From: Echinarachnius parma
Lineage: Eukaryota > Echinodermata > Echinoidea > Clypeasteroida > Echinarachniidae
DNA: 64,000 bases
Assembly (NCBI GenBank): GCA_037951105.1
Contig: JBAMJV010001832.1
Span: forward strand, 248,001 to 312,000
Direction: 5' to 3'
Part shown: positions 3,835 through 32,700 of the stretch, one piece after another
Layout of the letters: each line of letters starts with the position of its first letter
Position numbering within the stretch: the first letter of the stretch is position 1
Translations under genes and position numbers: made by a program
Notes under the pieces: model-generated
Told to the model about the DNA's origin: nothing
Database searches by the model: none
Seen by the model: the letters and a program-made list of their open reading frames with translations, nothing else

Positions 3835-4550
3835 TAGATCGACAAATCTATCGCTTTCATGGCCTTTTTGACATTATTATTGTTATTTTCACTGTCGGCA
3901 TTCTAGCGATAGACGCTACACTGTGCCTTGCGCGGCAAGAACACTGTAGCTCTGCAGTAAAAGTTAGTTACGGAAAATCAGTTGCATTCAAATACAAAAC
4001 ACCACATTCTCACACTTTGAGCGACATTTGTAGCCCTATCAATATATTTAGGGCTACTATAATACTTTAACTCACCGATCTCGTGTGTCGCTGTACGTGT
4101 CATTCCATAATTCCGGCGATTTTTACAATTTTAAAATGATTTTCCACCACTCTTCTTCGGTCTTTCACGGTACTTTTTGTTCAAACTGCAAAAAAAAAAA
4201 AATATAATGAATTCAATGTGCATCCGTGATGGAAAATCGTTTTAAAATTGTAAAAATCGCCGGAATTATGGAATGACACGTATAGCGACACACGAGATCG
4301 GTGAGTTAAAGTATTATAGTAGCCCTAAATATATTGATAGGGCTACAAATGTCGCTCAAAGTGTGAGAATGTGGTGTTTTGACTTTTTGAATGCAACTGA
4401 TTTTCCGTAACTTTAGTTTTATTGCAGAGCTACGGTGTTCTTGCCGCGCAAGGCACAGTGTATGGGTAGCGTCTATCGCTAGAATGCCGACAGTGAAAAT
4501 AACAATAATAATGTCAAAAAGGCCATGAAAGCGATAGATTTGTCGATCTA
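3835..4550. mobile_element. 716-bp foldback DNA element, Mutator-like
   Basis: Two arms of about 310 bp (left 3835-4146, right 4231-4550) are near-perfect inverted repeats around an 85-bp loop. The ends are TAGATCGACAAATC and GATTTGTCGATCTA. A 9-bp direct repeat, GCAATGACA, flanks it on both sides (3826-3834 and 4551-4559). A 9-bp target duplication with long terminal inverted repeats is characteristic of Mutator-like elements. No transposase is present, so it is non-autonomous. Confidence 0.75.
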
Positions 4551-10900: not shown

Positions 10901-13900
10901 GCATTTGTGTTTGTGTTGTAGATGCTTCTGTGTGTAGGAAGCTTCTTTGGGACTGGTGAGTCTGCTCTGGCTGAATGGAAGCAGCTCCAGTCTGCAGAGC
11001 TCAAAGGTGAGAATCTTTATAGTATACTTGCTTAATTAATTTGAATAGCGCCATATAGAATTGATCATATTTGAGAGGTTATTCAGGTTGCAAATCTCAA
11101 TACAATAACAGTATGTTTAGAAGAAGCCTACAGTTACCAGTTTTTTTTGGTGTTGTTGTTCTTGTGTTGTATGTTACTTCAGAATTGTTTTTTTTTGTAT
11201 TGCATCAGAATTTGTCTACCCTAATGATAAGTCTACCAGATAAATATTGTAATGGAGTATATGTTGATTGTCTGTTCACACATTTATGATTGAATGCTTT
11301 CCCAAGATTTATATCAGTACAATTGCTGTTTGAACGAGGTATCAAGGTGAATTTTATTGATTTGCTTACACCATTATGATATGTTTGTTTTCTTCTTGAT
11401 TCCAGTTCCCATTCCCACATACATATTGGGGCCCAACAATCCTGATCACTCCATCTTCTATGATGACAAAGAAGGATGCGATATCTGTGAGAATCTCACA
11501 TACCTAGGTAAGTTGTGCCCTCTCATATTAAATAATTGTCATTTAAACTATGCTATTCGCGTGAGTATCATAATACTTACAAAACAAGATAAATAGAATT
11601 CTACAATCACAACTGAAATGTTTACTTAATGTTGACGTAATTATTATGTCAGTAATAAAGATGAGACTAAAATGTTCTTCAAGTTTGTTCTAGTCATATT
11701 AATAGATTCTAGTTCTCTTATATTCAGTTATTCCACTGTTGACAGGACGGTCGAGGTAAATTAACTCACTACCACCATACAAAAGAAAAATAGGCAGTGG
11801 CAAGTACTAGAAACATGATGATGCAAACATTAGTATGTGGGACTGAAGGACAGCTACCACTGTCACACAGCTTCCTAGCAAAAGTAAAAGAACTTGCACA
11901 ATAAGTTGCCATAACAAAATAGTCCAACAAAAGTTTAGATTTCAGAGGATTTCCATGTATAATAAGAAATGTACAAAAATGTACAAAGAAAGGATGAAAT
12001 TGAACAGAAATGATGAATAAGTGACGTGGAGAGGCGGGAGAAGCAGATTTGCATAGTTTTTACAACATACCATCCCCTCTCATTACATTATTGGTATTAA
12101 CATGTTCCCTACTAGATTTTGCAATCCCCAATATTCATGTAGGTCCAACTAAGTTCCCATAGGAATAATTGAACAATGAACATCTTCTTACAGGCAAGAG
12201 AGGCATGTATGCAACAGCATCAGGATTACAGATAGCCTACCTTAGCGGTACCGAGTCACAGAGGCCTAATGATGGGTGCTATTTCACAAGAGCGGACGTG
12301 GATGCCCTGGGTCTGCCCTCAGTGTCCAACAGCAAGTTCAAAGGAGTGGATGTTCTTCTGACCTCACAGTGGCCAAGTAGTGTAACGCAGTACACCAGCA
12401 ACACGGTAAGAATGGGATGAGTTTTAAACCATATAAGGACTGGTATTTTATCCCCGCTATGCCTGCTATTTAACAAGAGATGACATGAATCCCTGGGTCT
12501 GCCCTTGGTGTCCAACAGCAAGTTCAAAGGAGTGGACGTTACTGACCTCCCAGTGGCCAAACAGTGTTACCAAATACACAAATAACTCAGTAAGCACTTG
12601 ATGAGTTCAAAACTGGTATTTTATGGCTACTATTGCCCGTTATGCCTGCTAGTTTATAAGAGCGGACATGGATATGCTTAGTATGCCCTGAGTCGGTCCT
12701 CAGTGTCCAACAGCAAGTTCAAAGGAGTGGACGTTCTGCTGATCTCCCAGTGGCCTAGCAGTGTCACCCAGTACACAAACAACTTTGTAAGAACTTGATG
12801 AGTTTTAAATCCTTTAAGGACTGGTATTTTATCCCTGCTATGCCTGCTATTTCACAAGAGGTGATGTGGATGTGCTGGGTCTGCCCTTGGTGTCCCACAG
12901 CAAGTTCAAAGGAGTGGACATTCTACTTACCTCTCAGTGGCCAAGCAGTCTCACCCATTACACCCAAAACTCTATGAGAACTTGATGAGTGGTAAACCTG
13001 AACATGTTTTTCTCCTGACAATAATCAAACCGTGGTATATGGGAATTCTTTGACATGCCATAATCAATTAGTCTGTAACAATTATGAAGATTTGATTAAA
13101 TATCTTGTGTTGTTATTGTAGTCCAGACAATTTGTATTCTAATCTGAATTGCCTGTGTATTTGAAACACATGAAGCATGAACAATTATGAGCTAGTCTTA
13201 AATTCTTTCCTGACAAAAAATTTAATATACAGGTGAAACACTAATAAAACATTAATTTATTTGTGCAAAGACAATCAAGCATGTAACCACCAATAATACC
13301 CCATCCAAGTCCTGCTAAAATGTGAATAAAACCTTTTCCCATCATTTTCCTTTTTTCCCAGGGAGGTGTTGATCCCAGTGGGACTTCTCCTATGCTGGAT
13401 GCTCTAACCCTTGGCTCTCAGACCTTTATAAAGCACTAAATGAGAAAAGAGTATCATGTTTGTAAATGTAACTTTATGTATAGTTCCATGAATGTAGTCT
13501 ATGTTGTACCTAAGTACCTAATATTATGGTGATGAGGATGGTGTTGATGATAATGATAATAATTATATCAATGGTTTTCTCTTCCTTATTCAGGAAGGTA
13601 TTGATCCCACAGATACGTCCTCTCTCCTTGGGGACCTAGCCCTAGCTCTGAGACCCAGGTACCACTTTGCGGGCTTGCAGGGCCTGTTCTACGAGAGGAC
13701 GCCATACAGGAATCACAGGGTCCTTGCTGAGAGTGCCAAACATGTGACAAGGTTCCTTGGTCTTGCCAAGGTTGGCAATGCAGAGAAGAAGAAGGTAGGC
13801 CAAGCCTTCACATTAATTAGCTTTTTTGTTCTACTCGCCCATTATTTTGGGCAAGTAAAATAATGAAAGTTCAAGTTTTTTTTTGCCCACAAAAACCAAC

Positions 13901-16900: not shown

Positions 16901-19900
16901 TACTTTCTACTCTTGTGCGCAAAGTACTTTTTACATAACCTTTTTAAAATAAGTTTTTATTCAATCATGCATGACGTTATCACCACATATTTGGTATCAA
17001 ACGAAAGAGTATGAATTAACCTTTGATATGACATATTGCAAAAAATATAATTAATGTTTATGTAATAAAATATTGCTGGTGGAAGTTGCGTTCCGCTTTT
17101 TTATAAACACCCTGTAATGTCTAGTCCGCCAATTAATACAAATGATACAAAACAAGATTCTAATTTAATGTTTCAATTATTTTACATTTAGAAATGCACA
17201 TAAAAAGTACAGGTTAATATAAGCTTCATCGATGTCATATGTCATTTCACATAATTATGAATAGTTAACTTGCAAAAAGCAATAACTTCCATTTTTGTCA
17301 ATGTTTGATAATTGCATAAAAAAAAGTAGGATGTCATGAGCAATTAAGGGTAATTATAGTCATAGATTGAAATAGCATACGTTTTATGCTAAACTTGATC
17401 TTACATCATTTAGAATTGTTTATGTGTCATTTGTGTACATTTAAAAATATGTAATGTTCTTGCTTCAAGTATATCACATTTAAAAAAAGGATAAATCATA
17501 AGAAAATACCATTCAAAAGAAAATACAAACTGATACAGAAAATTGACTTTGTCATCATGCCAAAAGGATAAATGGCTTTAGATATTAACTAAATTAACAA
17601 CATTGTTTATCATATATATTTTGTATTTGGAACCTTACTGTTTGCAGCCAAGCCCACTGGTCCCTGTTGGTTCTGCCTGGGCAGTCCTGAGGTGGAGAAA
17701 CATCTGGTGGCTAGTGTAGGAGAATCCGTAAGTTATCTTCTTTCTTCACTGGATTTTCAATTTTTTTTATTTTAGACAATTATGTTTAATGTATGAAAAT
17801 GAGCAATGAAAACTGGGATATGCCTGTGTCTTCCTGATTGCTAGAATCGGTAATAATTGTTTTTTATGCCTCCGCAACGAAGTAGCCGGAGGCATTATGT
17901 TTTCGGGTTGTCCGTCCGTCCGTACGTCCCGTTCTCGTGATCGCGTTATCTCAAGAACCGATTGACGGATTCTGACCAAACTTGGTACATGTATGTATTT
18001 TGGGGAGCCAATGAACTGATTAGATTTTGGGGTCATGAGGTCAAAGGTCACAGAGCTCATTTTATATGCAAAATAAGCTCGTGATCACGTTATCTCAAGA
18101 ACGGATTGACGGATTCTGACCAAACTTGGTACATGTATGTATCTTTGGGAGCCAATGAACCGATTGGATTTTGGGGTCCTGAGGTCAAAGGTCACAGACC
18201 TCATTATATATGCAAAAATAGCTTGTGATAGTATTATCTCAAGAACCGATTGACGGATTCTGCCCAAACTTGGTACATGTATGTATCTTGGGGAGCCGAT
18301 GAACTGATTACATTTTGGGGTCATGATGTCAAAGGTCAAAGGTCACACGGCTCATTATACATGCAAAAATGCTTGTAATTGGAAATCTCAAGAACTGAAT
18401 GTCAGATTTCAATCCAACTTGGTACCTGAATGTATCTTTTAGAGAGCTTTTGTAGTCATTATATTTTGGGGTCATGAGGTCAAAGGTCAAGGTCACAGGA
18501 CTCATTTTGTAAAATTATCTCAAGAATCAGTTGACAAATAACCATCAAACTTAGTACCTATAATTTGAATTTTGGAGAGCTAATAAGCTAATAAAATGTT
18601 GGGTCATGAGGGCAAAGGTCAAGGTCACATATATATAGCTCATAATTGTGATATGGCAAGATCCGATAGACAGATTACCATCAAAATTGAGTTGACAGAA
18701 TTAATTCTGTGTATGTTAATTTGGGCTTGATATATATAAATCGCGCAATGACGGAGACATCATTTTCGACTGCGCGCAGTCGAAGATCCATCTAGTTTAT
18801 TTGAGTAACTTTTTGTGGAAGAAAGTCAGTTGGATGAAGGATTTGTATATCGGTTTAAAGGGATCTAGTAACTTTGTTGATTATGTGCAAAAAGTGATAA
18901 GTGGTTGATACAATGTATTTTGTTGTTATCTGATACCATGTCCATTGGGTGTTGTGTGAAAATTTCAAGTTAAATGGACGTTATATGGCCGAGTAATGAG
19001 CAAAAATGCAAAGTGATATTCACTAACTCATTGCACTCACTTTGTACACGGTTCTGACGATCCAGTAGTTAATTTAACAACTGAACACTTCAATCGTAAA
19101 TATCTTTTTAACGAAAGGGAAATTTGAAAAACCGAAACCTGTCCAATGCTTTTTTATTGTTAATACGAATACAACAAGGTATGAGGGAACTGCTAGAATT
19201 CCAATTGGATTTTGAGGATTTGGACAATGTTACTAAGTCCCTTTAATTGTCTATGTTTGCGAAATAATATGTGAAACTTTATGAGTGAAAGGAAATAAAG
19301 GAGTGTAATTTTTTTTTTTTTTCAGGATCAAAACATGTGACACTTTCATTCAAAGTCATAGATATTTCCATAACTTGATAATGTTCACCTTTAGTTATGT
19401 CCAGACAAAATTATTTTCAATCTCTAGCTCATACACTTGTTATGTGTTAGTGGTTGTACACCTACTCATTTGTTTATGCAAACCTTCTGCTAAGTTACAT
19501 CCAGTCAAAAGATCTCTCAATACTCCAGGGAAAGTTTTGTTTGAGTGGTATACTTTCCATCAAATTGTCTATATTTAATGCCTGTTTGATCCTTGACTAC
19601 AGATGAACACTGTTATGAATTTGTGCCATTAATTTTATTTCACTTTTAACCGTCTATTTACTTTCAGTGTTACCTAGCTCTTGCCAAAGGAGGTCTCATC
19701 CCAGACCATGTCCTAGTCCTTCCTATTGGTCACTATCAGTCATCACTGGACCTAACTGAGGTATGCGAGAGGGATATACTATTCTTTCCTTTCTAGATAG
19801 GACACTATGTGAAAAATGGAGAAAAAAAAAGAAAAAAGGAGAAAGTACATGGAGGGGTAATTAAATGCTTTCTTTCAGCACAATAAATTAGAAATAGGAG

Positions 19901-22900
19901 GTGATGACTTTATTTTAAGATTAAAATTCATCAAATTGGTTCATGATAACTAAAGTGTTAATTGTAAGCCTCTAGAACGAGTATGAGATTTTTAGTAGGA
20001 TTTCAATTATATAGATTATTGAAAACCTTGTTTTGCTTATGATAAGATACAGCTCATTGTTTATTAATTCTAAATTCTGCTCACCAAAGTAAAATTTAGG
20101 GTCTGAATTCAGTGTCATTATTTGTTAACTCGTTCTCTTTCATTCCAATGTGTATCTTGTTCACTTGTAGGAAGTGCAAACAGAGTTGGAGCAGTACAAG
20201 ACGGCTCTGCGGAAGTTCTTTCACTCCAAGGGCAAATCCTGCGTCATCTACGAAAGGAACTTTAGAACGCAGCATCTGCAGCTTCAGGTACAAAATAATG
20301 TAAATCTTATATTTACAAACTGCTTTACATCCCTGTCTTACTGGAGACATAAATGTACTTAATAGTGACTAGCGTTAAACCTTGTGATGGTCATGTTGGT
20401 AAATTTTAGGCACATCTTCAAAAGATTCTATTATGATTTTTTTTCTCAAAATAAATGTGTGCCAATTATAAGTTATCTATTTTGGTCATTGATTTTATCT
20501 GCTTTCCTATCCATTAAATCGGACAGATGTTTTCTATTCAAATTAATATGAGAATTAATTGTTATCTCCTATCTTATCTACCAGGTGATACCAGTTGAGA
20601 AGTCCAAAGTGGAGGACATTAAGGAGGTTTTCTTCAGGTTAGCTGAGCAGCACAAACTGGAGCTGGCTGAGATACCCAAACACACAGACCTCAGACAGGT
20701 AATGATACCCAAACACACAGACCTCAGACAGATAATGATACCCAAACACACAGACCTCAGACAGGTAATGATACCCAAACACACAGACCTCAGACAGGTA
20801 GTGATACCCAAACACACAGACCTCAGACAGGTAATGATACCCAAACACACAGACCTCAGACAGGTAGTGATACCCAAACACACAGACCTCAGACAGGTAA
20901 TGATACCCAAACACACAGACCTCAGACAGGTAATGATACCCAAACACACAGACCTCAGACAGGTAGTGATACCCAAACACACAGACCTCAGACAGGTAGT
21001 GATACCCAAACACACAGACCTCAGACAGGTAATGATACCCAAACACACAGACCTCAGACAGGTAATGATACCCAAACACACAGACCTCAGACAGGTAGTG
21101 ATACCCAAACACACAGACCTCAGACAGGTAGTGATACCCAAACACACAGACCTCAGACAGGTAATGATACCCAAACACACAGACCTCAGACAGGTAATGA
21201 TACCCAAACACACAGACCTCAGACAGGTAATCATACCCAAACACACAGACCTCAGACAGGTAATGATACCCAAACACACAGACCTCAGACAGGTAATGAT
21301 ACCCAAACACGCAGACCTCAGACAGGTAGTGATACCCAAACACGCAGACCTCAGACAGGTAATGATACCCAAACACACAGACCTCAGACAGGTAATGATA
21401 CCCAAACACACAGACCTCAGACAGGTAGTGATACCCAAACACACAGACCTCAGACAGGTAATGATACCCAAACACACAGACCTCAGACAGGTAATGATAC
21501 CCAAACACACAGACCTCAGACAGGTAATGATACCCAAACACACAGACCTCAGACAGGTACTGATACCCAAACACACAGACCTCAGACAGGTAATGATAAT
21601 TCATTTAATACCTCAAGCAGGCTGAGATACCCAAACACAAAGACCTCAGACAGGTAATGATAATTCATTTAATACCTCAAGCAGGGCTCTATGAAACAAA
21701 TATTTGTTGCTTGCCCAACAGCAAAATCAACTTGCCCTAAGTGTTCAGGTATTATATGCCATTGAGCTTGTTAATATTTTTGTGTACTTATAAATCACAA
21801 TTTCACACTTGAAATATGTTACCTAGCAAAAAATTTAAATAATAAGTCATAATTTTAATTCCAAATCTGAACAAAATGCATTATTTTCAACGAGGCAACA
21901 AAGTTAATCCCCTGCCCAATAGGACAAGTGAATTGATTTAGTCTTGCCCTTCTATGACTTTAACTTGCCTTGGGCAAGCAGTCAATCTGCCATTTAACTT
22001 TGGCCTCACTGTTAAGTTGGCACAGGGTGGAAACTTAATTGGTGTATTTTATGGCATGCCGCAAATTTGAAATATTGAACATGTGCTTATATGAGTAGTC
22101 ACCATTAGTATTATTATTATTAAAAACTCTAAAGCAAAAGAACAAAAGTAATATAACAGCAAAACACACAATTTATACAAATTGCGAGTATGCGACAGCT
22201 ATAAACAGTGCAAAGCAGACTTCTAATGATATTCATATTTCTATTTCAGATCCTTTCTGTTGGGTCCCCCTACTTCTTTGCAGAGTTTGGTGATGGTGAG
22301 AAGCTCCTTCACAAAATCAAGAGGTTCTTCCCTCTTCAGTTTGGAAGGTACAGAGGCATTCATTTATTTATCTTTCTGGTATTTCATGAATTAATTAATT
22401 TCTGCTTGTTTGGCTACCTATCGGTAAGCAAACATTTAATGTTGTGTGCCATCGTTTTTTTTATTATTTGCATCATTAGAGTATATAGAGAGAGTAATAA
22501 ATACTCTGCTTATTATGTATTTTGTATTCCAAAAAAAAAAAAAAAGGATTTACTTTGTGAATGTGTGTGACAAGCAAATCAACATTGGGAATAGACCCAT
22601 TTAATTTCTTTGTGGACAATAAAGAAAGTATCCTCTTGCTTGCCGTTGTTTACTGAAGTCACAATACACCTGAATCTACTTTGTTATATTATTCCTAAAT
22701 GCACTATGTTTTGGTATAAAATGCATTCACCATAGACTTTAAACAGAGTATTTTTAGGACCAGTTCTTAACGGGTTAATTTGCTATCCCAATGAAAATTT
22801 TATTATAAATAAATTAATTAATTCTGTATTACAAATCTTGCTCCCAGGGAGGTGATGGCATCAGAGGAACTACTGAACATGCCTGAGAGAATCGACTGGA

Positions 22901-23910: not shown

Positions 23911-24658
23911 TTTTTATGCCTCCGTAACGAAGTTGGCGGAGGCATTATGTTTGCGGGTTGTCCGTCCGTCCGTACGTACGTCCATCCGTCTGTCCGTATC
24001 TCAAGAACCGATTGACGGATTCTGACCAAACTTGGTACATGTATGTATCTTGGGGAGCCAATGATCTGATTAGATTTTGGGGTCATGAGGTCAAAGGTCA
24101 AAGAGCTCATTTTATATGCAAAAATAGCTCTTGATCGCATTATCTCAAGGACCGATTGATGGATTCTGACCAAACTTGGTATATGTATGTATCTTGGAGA
24201 GCCGATGATCTGATTAGGTTTTGGGGTCATGAGGTCAAATGTCACAGATCTCATTATATATATGCAAAAATAGCTCGTGATCGTATTATCTCAAGGACCG
24301 TTTGACGGATTCTGACCAAACTTAGTACATGTATGTATCTTGGAGAGCCAATGATCTGAGTAGATGTTGGGGTCATGAGGTCAAAGGTCAAGGTCACAGG
24401 ACTCATGTAAAAAAAATCTCAAGAACCAGTTGACAAATAACCATCAAAACTTGGTACATATAATTTGAATTTTGGGGAGCTAATAAACTAATGAAATGTT
24501 GGGGTCATGAGGGCAAAGGTCGTGGTCACTTATCTGATTACCATCAAAATTGAGTTGACAGAATTGACTCAGTGTATGTTAATTTGGGCTTGATATATGT
24601 AAATTGCGTAATGGCGGAGGCATCATTTTCGACTGCGCGCAGTCGAGGATCCATCTAG
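23911..24658 (+). mobile_element. Helitron-like non-autonomous repeat, copy 2
   Basis: Same orientation and ends as 17861-18795: TTTTTATGCCTCCG at the left; CGACTGCGCGCAGTCG then GGATCCATCTAG and T at the right. It has about four internal units instead of five, so unit number varies between copies. Confidence 0.6.
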
Positions 24659-29721: not shown

Positions 29722-32700
29722 CTATTTGCTGGTCTGCGCTAGAACGTCGTGGATGTCCGTCCAGCACTCGTTAACGCTCGTCACAAAGTCGCTACCACTC
29801 GGCGAACCTGGGTACGAGGTGACGACGCAGCCCAACCGGTCATCCTTGACTGCGTACCCGATGCCCAGGCCGTTGGGGACCACGGGAGCAAAGCCACCTG
29901 CCAGTACGGCTGGGGCAGACAGGGTGCTGGTCGACAGGATGATGTGGGTGATGTGCTGGTAGGCAGGGTCGGAGAAGAAGGCCGGTGTCTTGCCTTCCTT
30001 AGCGGCAAGCGTGCGAAGGGCAAATAGATGTCTGTCCCAGCCTTGACCTAAAGGAATTGGATTAGGGGAGAAACATAAAATGTTTGTGTTAATTGTATAA
30101 TATACAAATAAATGTGGACAGGGTCCTGGTCGATAGAATGATGTGGTTGATGTCTGGTAGGCAGGGTCGGAGAAGAAGGCCTGCGGCAAGTGTGCGTAGG
30201 GCAAAGGTATGCCTGTCAAAGCCTTGACCCTAAAGGAATTGAAGGATAGATATAAACGGATAAAAGGAGAGAGCTAACGAAATTTAACCAATGATTGATT
30301 TGGTTAAAGTGTTTGTAAGTAGATAATGGAATGGCAAAAGAAAACAAAATTCATAGAACATTCATGTATATCGAGTATGAATTATGCCTAGTATACTTAC
30401 TATCATCCATTTTACCGATAGCTACTTCCTTAGCAATGTGTTTGTCAGAGCAATTTAGTTTCTTTATTCAACTCAATGACCAGAATTTGTTTGTTTGAAT
30501 GCAGTAAAAAGAATAAAGAAACATTTCATACAGTAATCAACTAAAGCTAATCATTAGTACAAATACATTAAACATCACAATTCAATGCATGGAACCAAGC
30601 TAATTCACATACCCATCGCTGCTTCCTTGGTGAGTTGGTTATGTTTGTTGGAGCATTCCTGTAGCAGCCGCCGTTTCTCTTCTGCGCTGGAGGACGAGCT
30701 CTTCTCGAAGGCTTGCGAGCACTTGTACGTCTCCATTGTGGCAGACCGAAGCGTCTCCGTCCTACCGTGCTTGAAGGCGGCCGTGCTACACGACTCGTAC
30801 GTCGGCCCTACTCGTCCGGTCATTCGGTAGTAGGCCATCTGGAGGTTGCACATTTAAAATACACCAAATGTTAAAAGTTGCATTTTTTAACAGAGAAATA
30901 AATTTTGGGTATTTTATGTCTCCACTCTCCAACAATGTTTACACATGACCCCCCCAAAGTTCCCGTAGGCAATAGGTAAATGCTCTTTTACCGGGAATAT
31001 AGTTGCATGACTGTGTCTTAGCTGAGCTTGCTTGTCTTCATTAAATTCTTTTCCAACAATATACATGATGTTAGATTTGCAAAGTGACGGTTGAGTTGAG
31101 GAACTATCAATATATTTTCAAGAAACAATTCCATATCTTAAGTTGCGATATCATTTAGAAAAAAAAGAAGAAAAGTAATTCCCTTTATCTTTTACCTGGA
31201 ATGATAGTTGCATGACAGAGTCTGGGCTGAGCTTGCTGGTCTTCAAGAAGTCCTTTCCCCAGTCCAAGTGCTCTCGGGAATCTATCTTGAGCTTGCTCGT
31301 CGCCGACTCGTAATTTTCTTTTGCTGTCTCGATGGCATTCGAAGTTGCTGCATCCAAATCAAGACTCAGCTGTATAGAGGAAATATATTTGATCTGTTTA
31401 TTAAAGGCTATAGAAAATTTGTTTCTACCACAAACAAATTGCCTTCCATGGGTTAAAAAACTAGCTACAGAATGTTATGTCACACTTTTAATAATCAGAC
31501 ACGTAAATTTAACAATAATACAAACCAGCACTAAATACTAATGTTTTTAAATGTGAGTTACAGTACCATACAGCTAATATGCATTTTAGCAAAAATAGTT
31601 AAGAAAGTGTCTTCTACTTCAATTATTCAAAGATTGCTTGGTTGCCATGTATCAGAAACACTGTGCCTAATGTCAATGCACTTGTAAAAATTAATATTGC
31701 TCCCCATCCCAAGGTTGACAATATATGAAGCACTTTAAGAATTAACCCCTTCAAGTACCAATGAATTATGCATGTATACTATGTCAGCAAACCATAATGG
31801 ATAACTAGCTATTATACATTATATCCCTCATAAGACTGTTCTAGCCATGTGATTGGTCGTAACGCTGTCATGTGTTCAAGTATAATTTCTCCCATCAAAT
31901 CCCAATCTCATATAGTACTTTTGTACAGTTCTTTTTTTGTCGAGGGCAACAAACTTTTGGGCGCCGCACGAGAGTTATAGTAAATTGCTGCTTCACACAG
32001 TACGTACGCGCATAGAGCGTGTGTTAAAAAGTAGTAAGTAAGGCATCAGCGAATTTGTTTTTTAAAAGTATTTTTTGGTATCTTGTTTGCCGGTTTGCTC
32101 TACATTGGATTGTTGGAATTTGATCAATTTTGAGTGAGCAGTCAACACGTCATGCTAGCACTGCTGGGGAAGTGTTGCCTAATGCAATATTGCCATTGCA
32201 TTGGTATAGCCTAGTAAGTGTACTATCTATTTATCAGTTTGATAAGCCTTAACTTTAAGCCAGCCCGCCCAACCTATCATTAGTATTCTAATGACGTTTT
32301 ATAAAATACCGGTAATAGGCTTAATATTAAGCAGCATGCATGGGACAGAGTCGTAGTACTTAGTCATGATTGGCATTGTAATTATTATACAGTCGATTAA
32401 CTTAACACCTGTCTGCATATGTAGCTATTGTATGATCCGGTAGCTGCGCTGCATGGATCGAGTTCGTCAACAATTCGTGCGATCGTGTGTTCGATGATGT
32501 CGATGGGTCTCAAAGTCAAATCTTGATCTCGATATCTAGCCGCGGCTATACAGCTCGCGTCGTCGCGTGCGCGATCAGTACAAGTACTTGCATTATTATA
32601 ATATATGCATGCATATTGCATGCATGCACTTGCATATCGCGTGCATGCAGTGCAGTGATCAGCTGATTGTAATGCTATTTTTAGCCTACAAATATGTATT

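Follow-up and report, generated by a model that had tools for sequence, protein, structure and literature searches.

What becomes of a gene when the end of one of its exons, together with the 5' splice site behind it, is multiplied many times over in a constant reading frame, and which of the resulting donors is used? This question is raised by a minisatellite in the window, i.e., the whole 64,000-nucleotide stretch of Echinarachnius parma DNA that was analyzed and to which all positions refer. The array is made of 28 head-to-tail copies of a 33-bp unit on the forward strand at 20671–21594.

The gene was identified from its spliced protein. Nine exons were joined, further 5' exons being left out, and these gave an open frame of 374 codons up to the stop. 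The resulting 374-aa partial protein matched CWF19-like protein 1 in PDB 8ro2, which we take to be the human protein, with an E value of 2.3e-118 (399 bits), compared to 82 bits for CWF19-like protein 2. Pfam placed CwfJ_C_1 at residues 162–274 (1.3e-35) and CwfJ_C_2 at residues 280–372 (5.7e-17). By this sequence comparison, with both CwfJ domains found and protein 1 matched better than protein 2, the gene is CWF19L1, the name already given to it by the initial annotation. CWF19L1 has been linked to intron turnover.

The exon concerned, exon 12 in the numbering of that annotation, is 114 nt long (20585–20698, forward strand), lies in phase 0, and ends with ...HTDLRQ. The next exon, at 22250–22347 on the same strand, was assigned from the spliced frame and the protein match. 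The junction between them falls after residue 296 of the partial protein, 17 residues into CwfJ_C_2, and the alignment to CWF19-like protein 1 is gap-free at this point when the first donor is joined to 22250. Extra blocks would therefore enter CwfJ_C_2 and not the space between the two C-terminal domains, where they had initially been placed. CWF19-like protein 2 carries a 6-residue insertion 6 residues upstream of the junction, so some nearby length change is known in the family.

The final bases of the exon ending at 20698 are ATACCCAAACACACAGACCTCAGACAG, and the intron starts with GTAATG. On direct reading, each copy of the array (consensus GATACCCAAACACACAGACCTCAGACAGGTAAT) consists of the last 27 bases of the exon followed by GTAATG-like intron bases, and the last 27 exon bases are the same as the 27 exon-derived bases of the consensus. 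TRF reported a period of 33, 30.1 copies, 94% matches, and a score of 1779 over 20671–21662. A 31-mer starting with GATACCC and ending with GGTA, searched with up to 3 mismatches, gave 29 matches against a mean of 0 in 100 shuffles; 28 of these were contiguous and one was detached, 64 bp past the last. The 13-mer AGACCTCAGACAG ends at 20698, at 20731, and then at each 33 bases up to 21589, and once more at 21653.

CAG/GT was present in 27 of the 28 contiguous copies (28/29 with the detached copy), the exception being copy 2, which reads CAG/AT, so that donor 2 is lost (20732–20733, forward strand). Position +5 was T in all 29 copies. The composition of the unit, the copy number, the 27 retained donors, and the T at +5 had all been described correctly beforehand. 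The array is real as well, but its contiguous part ends at 21594, and the end given earlier, 21653, includes the detached copy. The first donor, GTAATG at 20699–20704 on the forward strand, yields the conserved protein when joined to the acceptor at 22250, as judged by the spliced frame and the protein match. The lost donor is the nearest competitor of donor 1; this coincidence (a chance of 1 in 27, calculated by hand) was noticed afterwards and was not used as evidence.

The last contiguous copy is followed by 31 intron bases (21590–21620), the detached 29th copy (21621–21653), and the same 31 intron bases once again, without a difference (21654–21684), all on the forward strand. Behind the array there is thus a 64-bp tandem duplication made of 33 nt of the exon end, with 1 difference, and 31 intron bases. 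The detached copy has CAG before it and GTAATG after it, and from its sequence it is a possible in-phase microexon. Among viral contigs, the 27-base core of the unit had no match, and Rfam returned nothing at gathering scores for the window.

Each 33-nt unit encodes 11 residues in phase 0, and the frame is free of stops through copy 28. Counted in splice register, 27 units of 6 intron-derived and 27 exon-derived bases (20699–21589, forward strand) are open in phase 0. Read-through ends at a TGA (21623), so the 29th donor is out of reach by this route. The remaining two frames of the unit differ, one having two stops per unit and the other being open. The constant phase and the absence of stops were as initially reported. 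The accompanying range of 0 to 27 added blocks held for in-frame additions up to 27, but a single extra block is impossible, donor 2 having AT; from the sequence, possible transcripts would carry 0 or 2 to 27 added blocks.

Donor quality was expressed as the predicted duplex energy with the 5' end of U1, using a U1 sequence that may not be the species' own. A T at +5 is a departure from the donor consensus, and the array donors had at first been taken as weak. Predicted pairing did not bear this out: donor 1 reached -8.6 kcal/mol and the other GT copies ranged from -7.6 to -8.7 kcal/mol. The ten other donors of the gene gave -10.6, -9.3, -9.2, -8.2, -7.2, -5.8, -5.7, -5.7, -5.7, and -4.6 kcal/mol. 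Donor 1 thus ranks fourth of the eleven tested in the gene (range -4.6 to -10.6 kcal/mol), and by U1 pairing the array donors are of fair to good strength.

Variation among the units is low, 15 of the 27 being identical to the consensus. A4G occurs in 8 units; A4C, G6C, and G1A in one each; and A19G in 2 adjacent units, one of which also carries A4G. On the assumption of a single origin per change, five variant events were counted, all of them nonsynonymous (5/5, with 0/5 synonymous), and one of them destroys a GT. Along the array, the order of the variants repeats in blocks at lag 4, with 7 matching units in succession (shuffling P 0.006, without correction for the 8 lags tried). Together with the small number of variants, this order fits a recent spread by multi-unit steps. 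The retained CAG/GT and the retained frame are explained, as the units read, by youth. Selection on donors or codons was considered and is not needed; five events are too few, all are nonsynonymous, and one lies in a GT. Four of the five events fall within the six bases of intron origin (post hoc P 0.005), or 4/6 when the change of the detached copy is counted (P 0.012). This clustering is unlike the prediction for a purely neutral array.

The edges of the unit are consistent with an origin by tandem duplication. The unit starts with GATA, at 20671 in the exon end, and is met at its other edge by a GATA belonging to the intron start. Such a shared word of 4 bases, i.e., a microhomology at the unit edges, fits the mechanism proposed below without proving it.

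A second array was found further upstream in CWF19L1, at 12277–12999 on the forward strand. It comprises 4 copies of an exon end, donor, and intron start, derived from the 3' part of the exon at 12194–12405, its donor, and the beginning of the intron. The copies lie 186, 195, and 187 bp apart, and their pairwise stretches are 75–85% alike. Their donors are GTAAGA, GTAAGC, GTAAGA, and ATGAGA, the fourth being lost. The first donor follows 12405 and keeps the frame into the exon at 13594; reading on past this donor meets a stop at 12418. Copies 2 and 3 contain indels, and copy 4 is open in its own frame, with no GT donor. This decayed sibling is, by its sequence, older than the 28-copy array and built on the same plan.

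The neighbor of CWF19L1, a carnitine acyltransferase gene on the minus strand (Pfam 3.6e-26 and 6.7e-19), carries a partial tandem duplication at 29918–30241 (lags 199 and 181) over an apparent acceptor, the upstream copy being frameshifted. At least three border-spanning duplications thus appear in two genes of the window. Duplications of this sort may be common here, the 28-copy array being their long and young extreme; the window is a single sample.

Other repeats were also observed. Tandem units of 144–146 bp, similar by eye, occur at 17934–18506 and 23997–24521, beside or within CWF19L1, and are possibly a dispersed satellite-like element of the genome. A genome scan for three closely spaced CAGGTRNGT motifs gave 296 matches versus 228 for the reversed pattern; among the matches listed, all lay in one 32-bp repeat opening contig C252, and the scan is uninformative on enrichment. 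This long 32-bp repeat extends from base 3 of the contig to at least base 3838 and carries CAGGTATGT, a donor-like motif, on the minus strand.

The nearest known parallel is a minisatellite in human IFI6 (6-16, G1P3), whose unit is 12 bp compared to 33 bp in CWF19L1. The IFI6 unit keeps the reading frame, as does the unit described here, which is 33 nt long and open to 21623, and the 130-residue form of IFI6 is the one without extra units. Multiple splice donors in the IFI6 minisatellite were described by Turri, Cuin and Porter (1995, Nucleic Acids Res 23:1854, cited in PMC4526556). According to PMC4526556, three mRNA species are made because two repeat units further downstream also serve as donors, and the 130-residue form is predominant. 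Common to both arrays are tandem units placed across an exon–intron border, each with a donor; use of inner donors is reported for IFI6, whereas in CWF19L1 it is a possibility. In its anatomy, the CWF19L1 array is another case of the IFI6 type.

Beyond IFI6, no further minisatellite donor array was found in the accessible parts of the open-licence literature. Three candidate parallels were set aside: the paper on the DDX3Y minisatellite concerns start sites in 12 of 25 places, the minisatellites of the earthworm metallothionein are intronic only in the text available, and the two DOK7 donors, 11 nt apart, are not repeats.

The best-supported explanation, which we consider reasonably probable, is that of a young minisatellite, born at an exon border, that lives mainly as intron and perhaps contributes minor in-frame isoforms. 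A 33-bp segment bounded by the shared GATA would have been duplicated in tandem across the exon–intron border and then expanded through slippage or unequal exchange, some steps adding multi-unit blocks, each new unit carrying a donor along. The first donor, most probably the main one used as far as the sequence indicates, would still give the normal CWF19L1 protein, the rest of the array being removed with the intron. Occasional use of an inner donor would add 22 or more in-frame residues inside CwfJ_C_2. The array would be tolerable because its unit is 33 nt long and open.

Counting for such a neutral origin are the exact 27 + 6 unit, the gap-free protein obtained with donor 1, the small number of variants, which give no sign of constraint on donors or codons, and the block repeat in their order, as well as the GATA edges, the 64-bp duplication, the older array, and the IFI6 precedent. 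On the other side, the intron-proximal choice reported for ER-alpha exon 1 would, if it applied here, favor later donors. The fair strength of the donors, the clustered variants, and the open copy 4 of the older array also count against it.

Four biological alternatives were weighed. According to the first, many donors are used and the 0 or 2–27 extra blocks of 11 residues form a working ladder of isoforms with a purpose. The constant frame, the 27 stop-free blocks, the fairly good predicted pairing of the donors with U1, and the three mRNA species of the IFI6 array (PMC4526556) speak for it. However, the blocks would fall within CwfJ_C_2, none of the variant events is synonymous, though five is few, and read-through to the inner donors of the older sibling array meets a stop. 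A ladder of this kind is unlikely.

The second alternative regards the array as the beginnings of a new exon or intron, either with the detached copy as a 33-nt microexon or with splicing within the array. Intron gain by tandem duplication has been described, with 24-nt repeats in fission yeast and the potato RdRp as cases (PMC4974935, PMC3629103). The word associated with this model is AGGT; the fission yeast repeats contain AGGC according to PMC3629103 and AGGT according to PMC4974935. The CWF19L1 array shares with these cases tandem copies of a segment with a word resembling a splice site, placed at a coding border or close to it, and AGGT, this mark of intron gain, is contained in its CAG/GT in 27 of 28 contiguous copies. 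The two differ in that intron gain makes a new intron, whereas the array multiplies the donor of an existing one. The CAG before 21621, the donor after 21653, and the in-phase length of 33 nt would suit a microexon, and intron gain from the 24-nt repeats of fission yeast offers a precedent (PMC3629103). The acceptor tracts appear poor, however, with 57% pyrimidine at the detached copy compared to 62–76% for nine acceptors of the gene, and the four array CAGs examined had 10/21 (48%) pyrimidine with 1 T in 21. This alternative is considered decidedly unlikely.

Slightly less probable again is the third alternative, in which the array binds several U1 particles and thereby slows or tunes intron removal, or blocks premature 3' end formation. 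Behind donor 1 there are 26 intact GT donors with predicted duplexes in the range given above, and the period of 33 nt is close to the printed U1 footprint of 23 + 12 nt; the same source puts a 33-nt spacing close to the limit at which two U1 particles fit (PMC6002489). Yet the match in period may be chance, and most variants lie in the intron bases that pair with U1, so that no constraint is seen there.

In the fourth, the donor that prevails is the intron-proximal one, that of copy 28, which would lengthen the exon to 1005 nt and add 297 residues. In ER-alpha exon 1, two comparable donors lie 33 nt apart and the intron-proximal one is used (PMC6002489); the spacing equals that of the CWF19L1 array, although there are two donors and no repeat there, compared to 27 here. 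The frame is open as far as copy 28. Against this, CwfJ_C_2 would be split in nearly all of the protein, and for IFI6 no more than two downstream units are named as donors in the accessible text of PMC4526556. The dominance of copy 28 is highly improbable.

An assembly artefact or a wrong copy number is equally improbable: a single locus, with no second haplotype seen, is visible in the assembly of 1,200,326,526 bases in 14,790 contigs, but scattered and ordered variants distinguish the copies, and 20000–21000 used as query matched contig C1831 only, the upstream flank thus fitting one place among the best-scoring candidates, with the downstream flank outside the query.

Regarded as a young minisatellite at an exon border, the array shows how tandem duplication in a coding gene can take splice sites with it, and CWF19L1 offers a recent and an older example next to each other. 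With 27 donors that are almost identical and share one phase, the array provides a natural test of how the spliceosome chooses among equals: whether it settles on the first donor, on the last, or on several. How the intron-proximal donor is favored in such a choice is described as not known (PMC6002489). It is conceivable, though improbable, that the ladder of 26 further near-equal donors, at close to U1-footprint spacing and with an output that changes with allele length, sets the rate of intron removal or supplies in-frame CWF19L1 variants. If that were true, a ladder with allele-dependent output would sit in a gene that has itself been linked to intron turnover.
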